64,000 nt of DNA. Source: Elusimicrobium minutum. GTDB lineage: Bacteria; Elusimicrobiota; Elusimicrobia; Elusimicrobiales; UBA9959. A program made the position numbers and the translations under genes. The DNA lies in the NCBI GenBank assembly GCA_020723765.1, contig DYIF01000001.1, positions 155,918 to 219,917 of the forward strand, read 5' to 3'. Shown in pieces: positions 1 through 6,631 of this stretch (position 1 is the stretch's first letter; each line of letters opens with the position of its first letter). The notes under the pieces are model-generated. The model had not been told where the DNA came from. It saw only the letters and a list, made by a program, of their open reading frames with translations, and made no database searches.

Positions 1-394
1 CCACATCGTAATATCCGTCGTTTACTCCCCTCCACACATTATCACCGCTCTGGTTGTCGGTTATAGTAGGAGCCAGAACGTCCTTCCTGATATAAAAAAC
101 ATCCGTAGATACAAAAATATTTCCAGCATTATCAAAAACCCTTACGCTAACATAGTTAGTCCCGTTTTGCATTAAATCATATACGACGTTCGGTATCTGC
201 CAGTTCGCGATGTAATTAGGCTGGTTTATGTTGGTTATAACATCCGTCCAGTCCGCTATCACCGTCCCACTTTGATTTAAACCCGTCGTCACCTTTATCT
301 GAAACTTATTTAATCCCGAAGGACCGTTATCGTTAAAATCCACATCGTAATATCCGTCGTTTACTCCCCTCCACACATTATCACCGCTCTGGTT
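1..394 (-). repeat. 113-residue module repeat at the left edge
   Basis: Bases 1-55 recur unchanged at 340-394, an offset of 339 bp or 113 codons, which is one copy of the DVYYSV-type module. The sequences between and beyond have diverged. The array clearly continues past the left edge. Confidence 0.85.
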
Positions 395-3300
395 ATTTGT
401 TATCGTCGGAGTTTGAGTATCTTTTTTAACATAAAAAGCGTTATTTAAAACCGAACTATTTCCCGCCAAATTATAGACTCTTACAGAGACATAGTTATAG
501 CTTGAAACCAAATTATTAAAATCAACCTGCCAATTGGAAGTATATGAGTTAGAATTTATAACCGCTATAGTACTCCAGTTTATAACGGTATTTCCTAAAC
601 CGTCTTTAACCAGGTAATCCGCCCTTGTAAGAGGAGTTATCCCCGCGGCGTAAAAATCTACATCGTAAAAAGCGACTTGAGTATTTCTCCATACATCGTC
701 TCCGCTCTGGTTGTTTGTGATAATCGGAGATGTTAAATCTATTGCCGTTGTAAACTCGGGTGCCGTATTAATAGAAGGCAAAACTTCTTCCTGATTTTTG
801 GCATTATCGTAAGCTATAATTTTAAAACCTATACTTCCGGTTCTTGTGGATGTAAAGACAATAGGAGAGTTATAAAACTTATCTCCGAATTTTATCCAGT
901 TATAAGGAGTTTGAGTCTCGTATGTATAATAAAGATTAACATACTCTACTCCCGAGGCGTTATCGAACGTGGAATAATAAAGGTCGAAAGTGTAGCTGTT
1001 TGAGTACTGAGGAGACACTGGATATCCCTGTGGCGGAGCCGTATCTTTTTTAATATAAAAAACATTATCGGAAACCGAATTATTCCCAGCATCGTTCCAG
1101 ACTCTAACGCTTATATAATTTACGCCGTTTGGAAGCAAATTAAAGAAACTACTCGGCAACTGCCAGTTTGAGTTATATGAAGGCTCGTTAATATTATCTA
1201 AAACCAAATTCCAATCGGCGCCCGGAGTAGAAGTTTTAACCTCAAATTTTGTTATATTTCCTAAAGGCGACTCGAAATCTACGTCGTAATATCTTGAGTT
1301 TGAACTTATCCAGACATCGTCTCCGGTTTGATTATTTATAATCCTTGGAATGTTAGGCGCTTTTACGATATAAAAAACATCGGTTGAAACCGTTATATTA
1401 CCCGCGTTATCAAAAACCCTTACGCTTATGTAATTTGTAGAATAGACGAGCAAATCGAACTGAGTATTTGTAATGCTCCAACCGCCAGGATAATTAGCGG
1501 AGTTTATGTTTATTACGACATCGCTCCAATCCAATACCAATGTTCCGGTTTGATTTGGAGCGGTGGTAGCTTTTATCTGGAATTTATTTAATAATGAACC
1601 GCCCGAATCGTTAAAGCTTAAGTTATATGTTCCGTTATTTACATACCTGATAGTATCGTCTCCGATTTGGTTATCGTTTATAACAGGCGGTATAGTGTCC
1701 ACCAACACATTAAAAACAGAGCTGTAATTGCCCAAATTTCCCGCATTATCCTTCGCTCTAACCTTCCAGTAATATTTGTACCCTCCGCTTAAAACAAAAT
1801 TGGCGCTCAAACCGGTAGAATAACCCGAACTGTATCTAACGGAAAAATCGGTCAACGTAGATATCTCTATCTCATAGCCGTTTATGCCGGATAAACCATC
1901 CGATGCTAAACCCCAGTTAAAACTAACATTAGTTATATTCGTGCTTGAACCGCTTACAGGAGTTGTTAAATTAGGCACAGTCGGAGGGATAGTGTCCTTT
2001 AATACGTAAAAAACATCGGTAGATACATTAACATTACCCGCGTTATCGTACACCCTAACCGAAACATAATTAGTACCGTTTTGCATTAAATTAAATACGT
2101 TATTCGGTATCTGCCATGCGCCATATGACGATTGATTTATATTAGTCGCCATATCCGTCCAGTCGGTTATTAACGTACCGCTTTGACCTGGACCGGTAGT
2201 TACCTTTATCTGAAACTTATTTAAATAAGACAAATTATCGGTAAAAAATACGCTATAATAAACATCCGTATTTGTGCTTCGCCATACATCGTCTCCGATT
2301 TGGTTATCGTTTATAACCGGCGGTATAGTGTCCACCAATACATTAAAAACAGAACTGTAATCGCCCAAATTCCCCGCATTATCCTTCGCTCTGACCTTCC
2401 AGTAATATTTGTACCCTCCGCTTAAAACAAAATCCGCGCTTAAACCGGTAGAATAACCCGAACTGTATCTAACGGAAAAATCGGTCAATGTAGATATCTC
2501 TATCTCATAACCGTTTATGCCGGATAAACCATCCGATGCTAAACCCCAGTTAAAACTAACATTAGTTATATTCGTGCTTGAACCGCTTACAGGAGTTGTT
2601 AAATTAGGCACAGTCGGAGGGATAGTGTCCTTTAATACGTAAAAAACATCGGTAGATACATTAACATTACCCGCGTTATCGTACACCCTAACCGAAACAT
2701 AATTAGTACCGTTTTGCATTAAATTAAATACGTTATTCGGTATCTGCCATGCGCCATATGACGATTGATTTATATTAGTCGCCATATCCGTCCAGTCGGT
2801 TATTAACGTACCGCTTTGACCTGGACCGGTAGTTACCTTTATCTGAAACTTATTTAAATAAGACAAATTATCGGTAAAAAATACGCTATAATAAACATCC
2901 GTATTTGTGCTTCGCCATATATCATCAACAGGCTGAGAATTTAATATGTTAGGCTGAGTTAAATCAACTATAAAACTTCTTGTTGAAGACCATACCCCGA
3001 TATTCCCAGCATTATCGTAAGCTCTTACTCTCCAGTAATATTTATTCTGGGCTAAATTCGAAAAAGCGAATGTCGAAAAAGGCATGGAAGAAAAAGTTAT
3101 TACGGAAAAATCCGTCTTTGTGGAAACCTGAAGCTCATAATTTTTTATACCCGAACCTCCTGTGTCAGCACCGGAATCAAAAGAAAAAGAAACGCCTGTG
3201 TAATTAAAAGAAGAGCTGTCTACTGGTGTTATAGATGACATAGGAGGCGGAGTAGGGCTTGATAAATCGACTCCAAAAGACGGAGAAAAATAATCAACCC

Positions 3301-5305
3301 ACTGGCCGGCTCCGCCATCCCCAACCGCTCTCACTCTCCATTTATATACGGTGCCAGAAATAAGACCGGATGAGCTTACATAAACGACATTGTATGTGCT
3401 TGTATTTGCGTTAAAAGATGAAAAAGATGATGTAGTCAAATTTAGACCGTCGAATGAAGAAGAGTTCGGTTTTAATTCTATAGATAAAGCCAAATTATCG
3501 TATGTTTTTGAACTTGAAACAGTAGCGTAGAAATTAACCGAACCGGTATTTATCCAGCTCGATACCGGTATATCGTAGTTATTATCCGCTCTTTTTTGCG
3601 CAAGATTATAAGGAAGTTTTGGAGGCGGAGTATAGAGATAATTAATCCAGGCGGAGCCGTTAAAAATGCTATTTATGCCGGAAACATTTTGATAATTAAC
3701 GTTAAACGAACCAGTCGAAGTATTTATTTGAGAAAGATTTTGATATGACTGAAACATCATAGGAGATTCGTTTATCGTTCTATGAGTCATAGTAAAAGGG
3801 GAGTTAGAATTAAAAGCGATAGATGTCTGCTGGTCTCCGTTTAAATTTGTCGCGACTATATCTCCCAAGACATATCCTGAACTTATCGTTTTAGAACTAC
3901 CCGACTCCACCCACAAAAGAGGAATATTATTGTAAACATAAGAAGTTCCAATCGCCGTACTATTTCCGGCATAAGAGCCGTAAAAGACGGTATGAGCGGC
4001 GTTATTTTTATATTTATACGTAATAAAAAGCTCCATACCGTAACCGCCCGCGTTTGTGTTTGCGGATATCGTGGAGGCGACTACCGACCCGTTTGAAAAA
4101 CCAGCCAAAGCGGATGTAAAAGAATAAATAAACTTCCAATCGCTTATAAGAGCGCCGCCGTAATAAGCTATATAATTAATGGAAGGAGCTGTTACCCCCC
4201 CCAAAGAAGAGGTAATAGAAAATTGGTTTGTAGAGGTAGTAGAGTCGTTGCTCCCGTTTATCTTTGAATACACTTCTATCGGTATAATATCTTCCTCGTT
4301 TAAAAATATTTTAGAATTAAAAACGCTTGCGGATGTCCCTACCGCGGTTTGGCCGATAAATTGCCTTACAGTATCCACTTTATATGTTGCGTTATTTAAA
4401 GCCTCGTATGTTATAACCACCTCGCCGCTTAAAAAATGTATGGGGTCGTTAACGGTTGTAATATTAACCGATTTTAAACTGCCGGTAGAAAAACCGGGGA
4501 CTATAGTAGAAGAAGAAAGATATCTAAAATAAAAAGAATCCTGTAAAGAAGAATTTATATACATAGTCGGTTCCTGAGTTAGACCCATATTCAAAGAAAT
4601 CTGGCCGTTTGTTAAATTTACATATCTTTTAAACCCTGTTAATTCCACCCATTGATATCTTATCTGAGACATATCGGGAATATCCGCAAAATACCACATA
4701 GAAGTGGTTGTAGGAGCCAAAGCCCCGGTAGACACTGCGACTTTCGCTGACCAGTTTGAATAAAGCGGAAATCTTACTGTTTTAAGCTGTATGGGAGACT
4801 CGTCGTCATACGAATAAGTTATATAAAGTTTTGCCGTATGCATGTTGGAGGTAGGCCCGGTAATTCTAACCCCGGCTGTAAAATTAACTCCGGACGGCAA
4901 AGAAGATATTTGAGAAGATATGACGGATGTAACATCCGCCTTTGCGCTTAAAACTACAGATTCTCCGCTTTGAGTCGTATACTGGGCCGAAGTAAATCTC
5001 GCGGTATTTGCGGAAATACCTGGGTCGAAATATATAACAATCGGATTTATGTTTACCGCTGATACCGCAAGACCGTAGTACTCCACCCATGCGGAGATTA
5101 TATTTATTGAATTTTCGGGTATTTTAATGTTTCTTGTCTGGAAATTAAACTGAGTATTTGAAGCCAAATTGGTTGCGCTATAATAACCGCCCAGATTAAA
5201 CTCCACGGTTTTAACTCTCGTTTCGGAAAAGGATAAAGAAGAAAATAAAAATAATAAACCTATTGTTTTGAGCGAAATAAGTTTTATAAAAACTTTTTTA
5301 ATCAT
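1..5305 (-). CDS. Giant secreted Ig/fibronectin-like repeat protein, N-terminal part (runs off left edge)
   Basis: The frame opens at ATG 5305 after an AGAGGA ribosome site and stays open to base 1, giving at least 1,768 residues; the C-terminus is outside the window. Residues 1-27 form a signal peptide (two Lys, hydrophobic stretch, then SFS-ET). Roughly the first 800 residues are beta-rich, Ser/Thr/Asn-rich sequence with no family I recognise. After about residue 750 two module types alternate. One is fibronectin-like, about 98 residues, ending in YYWKVRAKDNAGN. The other is about 113 residues and contains DVYYSVFFTDN and a VSVRVYDNAGNV end. Repeats are very similar at DNA level near the left edge. 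The start overlaps the Rrf2 regulator stop as ATGA, so translation is probably coupled. Secretion and a surface role are inferred; ligand and anchoring are unknown. Confidence 0.85.
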   Translation of the reverse strand, partial: MIKKVFIKLISLKTIGLLFLFSSLSFSETRVKTVEFNLGGYYSATNLASNTQFNFQTRNIKIPENSINIISAWVEYYGLAVSAVNINPIVIYFDPGISANTARFTSAQYTTQSGESVVLSAKADVTSVISSQISSLPSGVNFTAGVRITGPTSNMHTAKLYITYSYDDESPIQLKTVRFPLYSNWSAKVAVSTGALAPTTTSMWYFADIPDMSQIRYQWVELTGFKRYVNLTNGQISLNMGLTQEPTMYINSSLQDSFYFRYLSSSTIVPGFSTGSLKSVNITTVNDPIHFLSGEVVITYEALNNATYKVDTVRQFIGQTAVGTSASVFNSKIFLNEEDIIPIEVYSKINGSNDSTTSTNQFSITSSLGGVTAPSINYIAYYGGALISDWKFIYSFTSALAGFSNGSVVASTISANTNAGGYGMELFITYKYKNNAAHTVFYGSYAGNSTAIGTSYVYNNIPLLWVESGSSKTISSGYVLGDIVATNLNGDQQTSIAFNSNSPFTMTHRTINESPMMFQSYQNLSQINTSTGSFNVNYQNVSGINSIFNGSAWINYLYTPPPKLPYNLAQKRADNNYDIPVSSWINTGSVNFYATVSSSKTYDNLALSIELKPNSSSFDGLNLTTSSFSSFNANTSTYNVVYVSSSGLISGTVYKWRVRAVGDGGAGQWVDYFSPSFGVDLSSPTPPPMSSITPVDSSSFNYTGVSFSFDSGADTGGSGIKNYELQVSTKTDFSVITFSSMPFSTFAFSNLAQNKYYWRVRAYDNAGNIGVWSSTRSFIVDLTQPNILNSQPVDDIWRSTNTDVYYSVFFTDNLSYLNKFQIKVTTGPGQSGTLITDWTDMATNINQSSYGAWQIPNNVFNLMQNGTNYVSVRVYDNAGNVNVSTDVFYVLKDTIPPTVPNLTTPVSGSSTNITNVSFNWGLASDGLSGINGYEIEISTLTDFSVRYSSGYSTGLSADFVLSGGYKYYWKVRAKDNAGNLGDYSSVFNVLVDTIPPVINDNQIGDDVWRSTNTDVYYSVFFTDNLSYLNKFQIKVTTGPGQSGTLITDWTDMATNINQSSYGAWQIPNNVFNLMQNGTNYVSVRVYDNAGNVNVSTDVFYVLKDTIPPTVPNLTTPVSGSSTNITNVSFNWGLASDGLSGINGYEIEISTLTDFSVRYSSGYSTGLSANFVLSGGYKYYWKVRAKDNAGNLGNYSSVFNVLVDTIPPVINDNQIGDDTIRYVNNGTYNLSFNDSGGSLLNKFQIKATTAPNQTGTLVLDWSDVVININSANYPGGWSITNTQFDLLVYSTNYISVRVFDNAGNITVSTDVFYIVKAPNIPRIINNQTGDDVWISSNSRYYDVDFESPLGNITKFEVKTSTPGADWNLVLDNINEPSYNSNWQLPSSFFNLLPNGVNYISVRVWNDAGNNSVSDNVFYIKKDTAPPQGYPVSPQYSNSYTFDLYYSTFDNASGVEYVNLYYTYETQTPYNWIKFGDKFYNSPIVFTSTRTGSIGFKIIAYDNAKNQEEVLPSINTAPEFTTAIDLTSPIITNNQSGDDVWRNTQVAFYDVDFYAAGITPLTRADYLVKDGLGNTVINWSTIAVINSNSYTSNWQVDFNNLVSSYNYVSVRVYNLAGNSSVLNNAFYVKKDTQTPTITNNQSGDNVWRGVNDGYYDVDFNDNGPSGLNKFQIKVTTGLNQSGTVIADWTDVITNINQPNYIANWQIPNVVYDLMQNGTNYVSVRVFDNAGNIFVSTDVFYIRKDVLAPTITDNQSGDNVWRGVNDGYYDV
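1655..2920 (-). repeat. 633-bp tandem duplication inside the left giant gene
   Basis: Bases 1655-2287 are repeated as 2288-2920, offset exactly 633 bp (211 codons), so the frame is kept. Each unit holds one 113-residue and one 98-residue module. By eye I count 11 mismatches, all in the first 223 bp; 1878-2286 and 2511-2919 appear identical over 409 bp. This uneven pattern suggests recent duplication or gene conversion. Confidence 0.93.
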
Positions 5306-5706
5306 CTATCCTCTATTTTATTCTCCTTATTATCAAGCTCTGCGCTCATTATAACATCTTTTACCGTAAGCCCCACAAGCCATCTGTCTATATGTTCTCT
5401 CATATTTTTATAAAGTTTTATGGCTATGCTTTTTGAATCTATATCCGGAGCGGAGTTATAAGTAAAAGCCTCTATCAAATCGCTTACGTTTATATCGTCT
5501 AAATTTTTCACCAATCTAAACCTTTTTCCTTTCTTAGACTCGACCCAGCCGGTATGAACAAGGGTCTGCATAACTTTATTACAATAGGCCATAGGAAGCT
5601 TTTCCATTTTAGATATATCGCTTATCTGAACCCAATTGTTGTGTCCGTATTTATCTAAATACCTTAAACAACAAAGCCCGTAAGCTAAAGTTTTATTTAT
5701 CTTCAT
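5302..5706 (-). CDS. Rrf2-family transcriptional regulator lacking the iron-sulfur cysteines
   Basis: Small winged-helix regulator of 134 residues. The N-terminus (MKINKTLAYGLCCLRYLDKY) followed by a recognition-helix region (ISDISKMEKLPMAYCNKVMQ) and a wing (GWVESKKGKRFRLVK) match the Rrf2/BadM layout. I chose ATG 5706 because AAAGGCGG lies 6 nt upstream; an ATG at 5730 would add eight residues. Rrf2 members that sense iron-sulfur clusters carry three Cys in the C-terminal third. This protein has none there, only CC near the start and one Cys in the recognition region, so it probably senses something else. Its stop overlaps the start of the giant secreted protein (ATGA), making that gene its likely main target. 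Autoregulation is suggested by the palindrome over the promoter. Confidence 0.85.
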   Translation of the reverse strand: MKINKTLAYGLCCLRYLDKYGHNNWVQISDISKMEKLPMAYCNKVMQTLVHTGWVESKKGKRFRLVKNLDDINVSDLIEAFTYNSAPDIDSKSIAIKLYKNMREHIDRWLVGLTVKDVIMSAELDNKENKIEDR

Positions 5707-5720
5707 AAATCCGCCTTTAA

Positions 5721-5743
5721 CATCGGACATTTTTTATCCGATG
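5721..5743 (-). promoter_or_regulatory. Inverted repeat in the leader of the Rrf2 gene
   Basis: CATCGGA at 5721-5727 pairs with TCCGATG at 5737-5743 around a 9-nt loop. In the mRNA this hairpin sits just before the AAAGGCGG ribosome site, so it could modulate translation; it could equally be a DNA operator half-site pair. Confidence 0.4.
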
Positions 5744-5759
5744 TATAAACATAAAAAAA

Positions 5760-5777
5760 TTGGCATAATGATGCCAA
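5760..5777. promoter_or_regulatory. Operator-like palindrome at the Rrf2/giant-gene promoter
   Basis: TTGGCATAATGATGCCAA is a perfect inverted repeat with 7-bp arms and a 4-bp centre. It lies directly downstream of the -10 box (5785-5790) on the minus strand, over the expected transcription start. A repressor binding here would block initiation. The Rrf2 protein encoded just downstream is the natural candidate, which is an inference. Confidence 0.55.
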
Positions 5778-5784
5778 TAAGTAT

Positions 5785-5812
5785 AGTATAGCAGAAATTA
5801 AAAATAAATCAA
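5785..5812 (-). promoter_or_regulatory. Sigma70-type promoter for the Rrf2-giant protein operon
   Basis: On the minus strand TTGATT (5812-5807) and TATACT (5790-5785) are separated by 16 nt. A second TATACT follows at 5785-5780. The promoter lies across the end of the upstream nucleotidyltransferase gene, so the Rrf2 gene need not be read from that gene's promoter. Confidence 0.6.
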
Positions 5813-5815
5813 TAG

Positions 5816-6631
5816 CTAACTTGATAACTTTTCTTTTATTTTGTTAAACTCATAAAAAAACGGAAGAATATACTCGTTTAATTCAAAATGTTTATAAAAA
5901 CACATCTTTATAAAAGGATAAGATAAACGTTCTTTAAAACCGATTTTAGTTTTTTTGAAATCTATCCCGCATTTTTTAAGAGCCAGCGAAACAATTAGAG
6001 AAACTCCGTATTGTCGGGCTCTATTCAAAATTTCCAAATCTATACCTTGATTATTAATTTTGGCTTTAGAATAAACCGAAATGAAATCTTTTTTGTCTTT
6101 TTCGCTAAAAAAACCGTGTTTTATAATAGGATGAACCGCCAATATTATTAAAGTATCAGAATCGGCTAATAATTTAATTTTTCTATATTCTTTTGTTTCT
6201 TCGCAATTAAAATCTTCAAACTTAAAATTTGAAAAATAAGTATGTATGTCGAGTATTACCGGCGCAAATTTTTCCCCTACGATTTTATAATAAGAATGCC
6301 TTCCTTTTGTGATTTTTTTAAATCCTAAAAGTTTAATACCTTCCTCAACCGCCAAAAAATCTTTCTCTTTTACTATAAGATCCGCATCGCTCATCTCCCT
6401 CTCGTCTAAACCTAAATATCCTTTCAAAATAAGAGATGCTCCTTTAAAAAGAATTACATCCATATTTTTTTTAAAAAGCAGCTCGTCCAATTTTTTTAAC
6501 TCGCTTAAAATCAAAACGTTCCTTATTTTTATTTTATATCTATCTTCTTGCGCCATTTCTATCATATAACCAAAACCTAATTTGCTTTTTTGGGGCGATA
6601 GCTTATTTTTAGCGAATTTAGTTTTAGGCAT
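5816..6631 (-). CDS. Nucleotidyltransferase-fold family protein (NTP_transf_5 type)
   Basis: 271 residues. The stretch LILSELKKLDELL...MDVILFKGASLI...REMSDADLIV fits the uncharacterised nucleotidyltransferase family often called NTP_transf_5: helix, FKGASL, then an R-x-x-x-D-x-D metal-binding-like motif. Substrate and role are unknown; relatives often occur near surface polysaccharide or peptide-modification genes. The first 20 or so residues are encoded by a short DNA repeat that also occurs outside any gene at 6683-6717, so ATG 6565 (MIEMAQEDRY) may be the original start and 6631 an extension gained by repeat insertion. The gene is divergent from mntP. A promoter for the next gene lies over its 3' end, so it is probably a single-gene transcript. 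Confidence 0.72.
   Translation of the reverse strand: MPKTKFAKNKLSPQKSKLGFGYMIEMAQEDRYKIKIRNVLILSELKKLDELLFKKNMDVILFKGASLILKGYLGLDEREMSDADLIVKEKDFLAVEEGIKLLGFKKITKGRHSYYKIVGEKFAPVILDIHTYFSNFKFEDFNCEETKEYRKIKLLADSDTLIILAVHPIIKHGFFSEKDKKDFISVYSKAKINNQGIDLEILNRARQYGVSLIVSLALKKCGIDFKKTKIGFKERLSYPFIKMCFYKHFELNEYILPFFYEFNKIKEKLSS
6584..6616. repeat. Short interspersed repeat, copy 1 (inside a coding region)
   Basis: A 33-bp sequence recurs 101 bp away at 6685-6717. Read on the minus strand it encodes KFAKNKLSPQKSK near the N-terminus of the nucleotidyltransferase-fold protein. In this copy one terminal base has changed (TTGCT instead of TTCGCT). Confidence 0.85.

Follow-up and report, generated by a model that had tools for sequence, protein, structure and literature searches.

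A conserved 23-bp palindrome, placed at a nearly constant distance behind a terminator-like hairpin, precedes an operon that opens with an Rrf2-type regulator and continues into a giant secreted protein. Sequence comparison indicates that regulator, palindrome and terminator-like signal are kept together in front of the giant-protein operon in at least ten Elusimicrobiota genera. We propose, with our confidence evenly divided for and against, that the leader is a self-contained switch for this one operon, autorepressed by roadblock-assisted termination. The window, the 64,000-nucleotide stretch that was analysed, lies within a 2.1-Mb genome (G000:C6:155918-219917). It was compared with a family survey (59 genomes of one Elusimicrobiota family, the window genome's own, the relatives being uncultured MAGs), 34 distinct leaders and 19 fetched relative loci. 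Features are collected in Table 1.

Table 1. Features at the regulator end of the operon, in window coordinates
Feature	Position	Strand	Remarks
5′ part of giant secreted Ig/FN3-like repeat protein gene	1..5305	-	runs on beyond the window as far as G000:C6:142,847
rrf2-like regulator	5302..5706	-	begins MKINKTLAYG...; Fe-S Cys loop absent, wing shortened
Probable ribosome-binding site of rrf2	5711..5718	-	AAAGGCGG; 4-5 nt ahead of ATG 5706
Conserved 23-bp palindrome, putative Rrf2 operator	5721..5743	.	CATCGGATAAAAAATGTCCGATG; consensus CATYGGAYA-N5-TRTCCRATG
Terminator-like hairpin and T-run	5753..5778	-	ATTGGCAT-CATT-ATGCCAAT; found by an independent scan; equals the TTGGCAT palindrome
Sigma70-type promoter, extended -10	5785..5812	-	TTGATT-16 nt-TATACT, TGC directly ahead of -10
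NTP_transf_5 (PF14907) gene	5816..6631	-	ends 4 nt ahead of the -35 box

A divergent Rrf2 regulator and its operon

The regulator belongs to the Rrf2 family by its match to PF02082 (1.5e-15, 58 bits against a cut-off of 30); it also matches TIGR00738 (1.1e-15), at 57.6 bits, under that model's stricter cut-off of 73.3. Its start is most likely ATG 5706 and not ATG 5730, because homologues begin M(K/R)xN(K/R)T, a good ribosome-binding site precedes 5706 and the 5730 ATG falls inside the conserved palindrome. The C-terminal Cys triad of Fe-S Rrf2 proteins (IscR/NsrR/RirA) is absent from every aligned homologue. Relative to other Rrf2 proteins encoded in its own and related genomes, the regulator has lost the whole cysteine loop, and two residues are missing from its wing (GKGYRL in homologues, GKRFRL in the window). 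The conserved Rrf2 helix 3/wing motif, Lx3Gx6Gx2GGx2L (PMC9338935), is altered to match, its G-x2-GG part being two residues shorter in all aligned homologues. The regulator is thus a divergent Rrf2 subgroup, for which the family HMM still holds.

Two cysteines stand out among the homologues, Cys13 in helix 1, which is invariant, and Cys42 in the recognition helix, conserved in at least 90%; thiol sensing through this pair is possible. An AlphaFold model of the regulator (mean pLDDT 78) is confident in its N-terminal half, and its best solved structural match in Foldseek is CymR (E 1e-6); the top 38 matches are Rrf2-type structures, either by their descriptions or as known members of the family. 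With a profile of 36 homologues (A1), strong matches (E < 1e-40) were found in 35 of the 59 family genomes, while genomes from other families of the order gave weak, general-Rrf2 matches only. Every taxon-named relative of the regulator in the GTDB collection is an Elusimicrobiota MAG, the others being labelled just 'bacterium'.

The rrf2 stop and the giant start overlap in an ATGA (5305-5302). The giant gene spans about 18.4 kb (G000:C6:142,847-161,222) and reads as 1,767 aa, a 100-N assembly gap immediately beyond the window's edge (approximately L038:13824-13923) and then 4,358 aa up to a stop, for a minimum protein length of about 6,100 aa. The gap is probably a collapsed repeat, and the two parts make up a single gene only if the frame runs unbroken through it; in relatives the frame is continuous over 4,500-9,500 aa. 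The giant protein carries FN3/Ig-like repeats, joined in one clade by a lamin-tail domain and a C-terminal β-propeller; 'adhesin' is at most a tentative label for it. In all 19 relative loci the giant gene follows rrf2 on the same strand, directly in 15 and after a nucleotidyltransferase, secreted-protein or transposase gene in the other four, and outside the window genome the gap between the two is usually 0-45 nt. The regulator and the giant C-terminus co-occur in 30 genomes and are both missing from 20; 5 genomes have the regulator alone and 4 the giant alone, which weighs against the switch proposed below, although several in these two groups are fragmented at contig ends.

Much of the sequence-only reading of this locus is borne out by these comparisons: it had named an Rrf2-type regulator devoid of the C-terminal Cys triad, and the regulator/giant pair, whose conservation it suggested checking in related genomes, keeps its order at every locus fetched. 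Its repeat protein of more than 1,760 residues is indeed a giant, but a far longer one, and its ATGA coupling is present, but in exact form in this genome only.

Wherever the fetched stretch reaches beyond the giant gene, a PQQ-type propeller protein of about 1,060 aa and a PorV-like barrel follow, and the order giant, propeller, barrel is kept in the window genome (L038, L075). Marks of a type IX cargo or operon are present, with PF19572 (PorV-like) at 8.5e-7 in a relative and Por_Secre_tail above cut-off on the window genome's propeller gene. The SprA translocon (PF14349) was not found in the window genome, where a divergent SprA may be missed, and classical type IX secretion was rejected on this result.

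Upstream of rrf2 the window genome has the NTP_transf_5 gene only, and related nucleotidyltransferases sit at the rrf2 locus in some relatives. Many relatives carry PqqD, radical SAM/SPASM and S24/S26-peptidase-like genes there; at L085:3-2379, L093:926-2438 and similar loci these are accompanied by a P-loop (HprK-like) gene, the set resembling a peptide-modification cluster.

Promoter, hairpin and palindrome of the leader

The 34 distinct leaders share a fixed order of promoter, hairpin with T-run, CATYGGAYA-N5-TRTCCRATG and start codon. Their promoter consensus is TTGAC(A/T)-16-TATACTAT with TGn ahead of the -10, and an extended -10 together with a TTGA box is found in 31 of the 34. In the window the boxes lie at 5812-5807 and 5790-5785, with a 16-nt spacer.

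The perfect inverted repeat TTGGCATCATTATGCCAA (5777-5760), the sole perfect copy in the genome, forms part of an 8+8 repeat that encloses a 4-nt loop and is trailed by TTTTTT (5778-5753). At dG ≤ -5, 33 of 34 leaders have a hairpin and T-run in the matching place (12% of shuffles), and at dG ≤ -8 a hairpin is present in 31 of 34 (3% of shuffles), the stem bases differing between genomes while pairing is kept. In the window, as in these 33 leaders, a GC-containing hairpin stands directly before the T-run, which makes the element an intrinsic (Rho-independent) terminator by form, and we call it terminator-like. The single leader without a hairpin, L009 of G006, has its palindrome about 12 nt past the -10, which is a classical repressor position.

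These results divide the earlier account of the leader. Its promoter is present as described, the extended -10 TGC being an addition, and its perfect 7+7 palindrome over the predicted start does exist, but as part of the hairpin and with a sequence that is not conserved. The proposal that TTGGCAT-N4-ATGCCAA is the regulator's site, to be looked for in related genomes, fails there: it is the window's variant of the terminator-like hairpin, its sequence varies, it has no second perfect copy in the genome and a T-run trails the equivalent hairpin in 33 of 34 leaders. Phase control was likewise abandoned, as the leader has no invertible element or repeat-length device; no tandem repeat is reported near it, and its inverted repeats, a hairpin and a compact palindrome, are unlike the flanks of an invertible segment.

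The site that is conserved is the second inverted repeat (5743-5721), overlooked earlier. With at most one mismatch, its consensus lies upstream of rrf2 in 34 of the 35 regulator-bearing family genomes and occurs in 0 of the 24 without the regulator; a reversed control pattern gave 0 matches in the genome survey. It is absent from G015, where the sole regulator relative is a divergent paralogue. There is one palindrome per regulator copy, and two in G003, which carries two copies. No regulon beyond the operon was seen in the window genome at two mismatches or fewer, there being no other match below three, and three-mismatch matches are at the level of the control. The suggested dedication of a regulator to one giant secreted protein thus holds as a family-wide pair, in which each regulator copy has one operator-like site and no others occur at this stringency.

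Because the palindrome always adjoins rrf2, this tie is linkage and not proof that the regulator binds it, and in principle another regulator may do so. Stronger evidence for binding is that recognition helix and half-site have changed in step: the divergent group L026/L029/L033 combines the helix AYCYKVLEAL with the altered site CATTAGATA...TATCTAATG, the AYCYKV helix thus accompanying the CATTAGATA half-site, and G025 has a mixed site. On this sequence evidence the palindrome is the probable Rrf2 operator. A regulator paralogue that has no palindrome occurs in L025 and L028 (YCVKVL) and at G074:C428, each time behind an unrelated gene; in the first two loci a pair of response-regulator-like genes comes next.

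The distance from T-run to palindrome is tight (median 7, SD 1.9 nt in 33 leaders), whereas that from palindrome to ATG is loose (11-284 nt in this same set, 11-354 nt overall). It is chiefly from this difference that we take terminator and palindrome to act jointly.

A possible roadblock at the terminator

In the mechanism that we propose, the strong extended -10 promoter would start a short leader transcript and polymerase would meet the terminator-like hairpin and T-run within about 20-60 nt. An Rrf2 dimer, product of the operon's first gene, would bind the palindrome about 7 bp past the T-run and so sit roughly one polymerase front-edge beyond the termination point. From general knowledge of polymerase size, we infer that a protein bound there would meet the leading edge of an enzyme whose active site is near the hairpin base or T-run. 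As a roadblock, the dimer would keep polymerase at the terminator and so make termination efficient. Its release, possibly through thiol chemistry at Cys13/Cys42 or through a partner protein, would allow more readthrough and hence transcription of rrf2, the giant, the β-propeller and the PorV-like barrel, an operon of about 20 kb, until freshly made regulator closed the switch again.

The more general form of this idea is a conditional terminator, in which termination is decided by a DNA-binding protein whose operator follows an intrinsic terminator at a set spacing; we put it forward tentatively and with some doubt. Against the proposed roadblock mechanism, the window hairpin begins near +1, so that an RNA of only about 27 nt would be released on termination. 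Moreover, the hairpins seem capable of termination by themselves, which weakens regulator-assisted termination; if they do terminate alone, the switch would need an antiterminator, and none was found. Were the conditional terminator real, the bacterium would commit to its giant transcript of about 20 kb only once the regulator leaves, by a general design that joins roadblock and attenuation with no RNA switch.

The L009 leader, which has the palindrome without any hairpin, would suit a simple autorepressor whose dimer alone blocks transcription, the hairpin being an independent, fixed attenuator and an insulator from upstream readthrough. The upstream gene ends so close to the promoter that one terminator could stop both transcripts, again as this explanation would have it. 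It leaves unexplained, however, why 33 of 34 leaders have retained a hairpin between conserved promoter and gene, and at a spacing from the palindrome far tighter than the other spacings; on balance we consider it rather unlikely. A conserved strong promoter that faces a terminator needs a way through, and rrf2 is the gene that comes first after it; bound Rrf2, alone or with an elongation factor, might therefore help polymerase past the terminator and turn the operon on. We judge this improbable, since L009 has a palindrome but no terminator to overcome, and since a site behind the terminator is unlike known DNA-bound antiterminators, which act at or before the pause and are not known to act behind a terminator.

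Two further explanations would change the identity of the elements themselves. The palindrome is inside the transcribed leader and able to pair, and could be an RNA hairpin serving protein binding, stability or translation in place of a DNA operator. At its two variable positions, however, C-A mismatches outnumber G-U-compatible T-G pairs (18 against 9 across 32 sites), the opposite of what an RNA stem tolerates, which argues that the palindrome acts as duplex DNA; its varying distance from the ATG also speaks against an RNA role, and the RNA stem, rejected on its mismatch pattern, has very little probability left. We give just as little credence to the hairpin being the upstream gene's terminator only, with the true rrf2 start behind it. 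The upstream gene does end just ahead of the hairpin and a weak TTGGCA-18-TATGTT match exists at 5777-5748, but 31 of the 34 leaders have the consensus extended -10 promoter ahead of the hairpin, and no second conserved promoter was seen behind it.

Relation to known systems

CymR of Bacillus and Staphylococcus is, as the window regulator would be, a repressor of the Rrf2 family without an Fe-S cluster (PMC9338935). Identity in the structural alignment is nevertheless about 20%; CymR is a global cysteine regulator, whereas the window regulator appears single-site, and Cys13/Cys42 have no established equivalent. IscR, NsrR and RsrR share the fold, and the operator fragment on which NsrR was solved (PMC9338935) has the length of the palindrome, 23 bp, but the loop that holds their cluster is deleted here and the operator sequences are unrelated by eye. 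The monothiol Rrf2 repressors SifR and YwnA also have no cluster and may sense through a cysteine (PMC9218516); that of SifR is C102, in the C-terminal part, whereas C13 and C42 lie in helix 1 and the recognition helix.

LacI, CcpA and CodY provide precedents for a protein bound downstream of a promoter that stops polymerase, the stalled enzyme being released mostly by Mfd; at LacI roadblocks bound repressor halts the enzyme and termination of the stalled complex matters (PMC4132739). The window leader differs from these in its intrinsic-terminator-like hairpin at fixed distance ahead of the site, and points to a simple combination of roadblock with attenuation. In the literature library searched, no described Rrf2/adhesin pair or terminator-operator hybrid was found. 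Elusimicrobiota were already noted as rich in proteins of more than 5,000 aa, without function or regulation being given for them in the part of that source cited here (PMC11573180). To one conserved giant secreted protein of this phylum, whose giants previously had neither function nor control assigned, we can now link a dedicated, single-site regulator with a defined putative operator; this regulator also defines an Rrf2 subgroup that combines absent Fe-S ligands with a shortened wing.

A second, larger secreted giant gene runs through 33715-64000 of the window (minus strand) from a start at L154:9345 (about G000:C6:228,844), its open frame coding for about 13,077 aa and closing in a Por_Secre_tail-like C-terminal end. 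A nucleotidyltransferase gene lies less than 1 kb upstream, with no Rrf2 gene or operator near the start; that giant proteins generally need such a regulator was rejected, this one having none in the 10 kb upstream. In G003, transposase-like ORFs lie in or beside the giant locus (L082:5879-6886, L079:4249-5502), and one giant copy appears interrupted.
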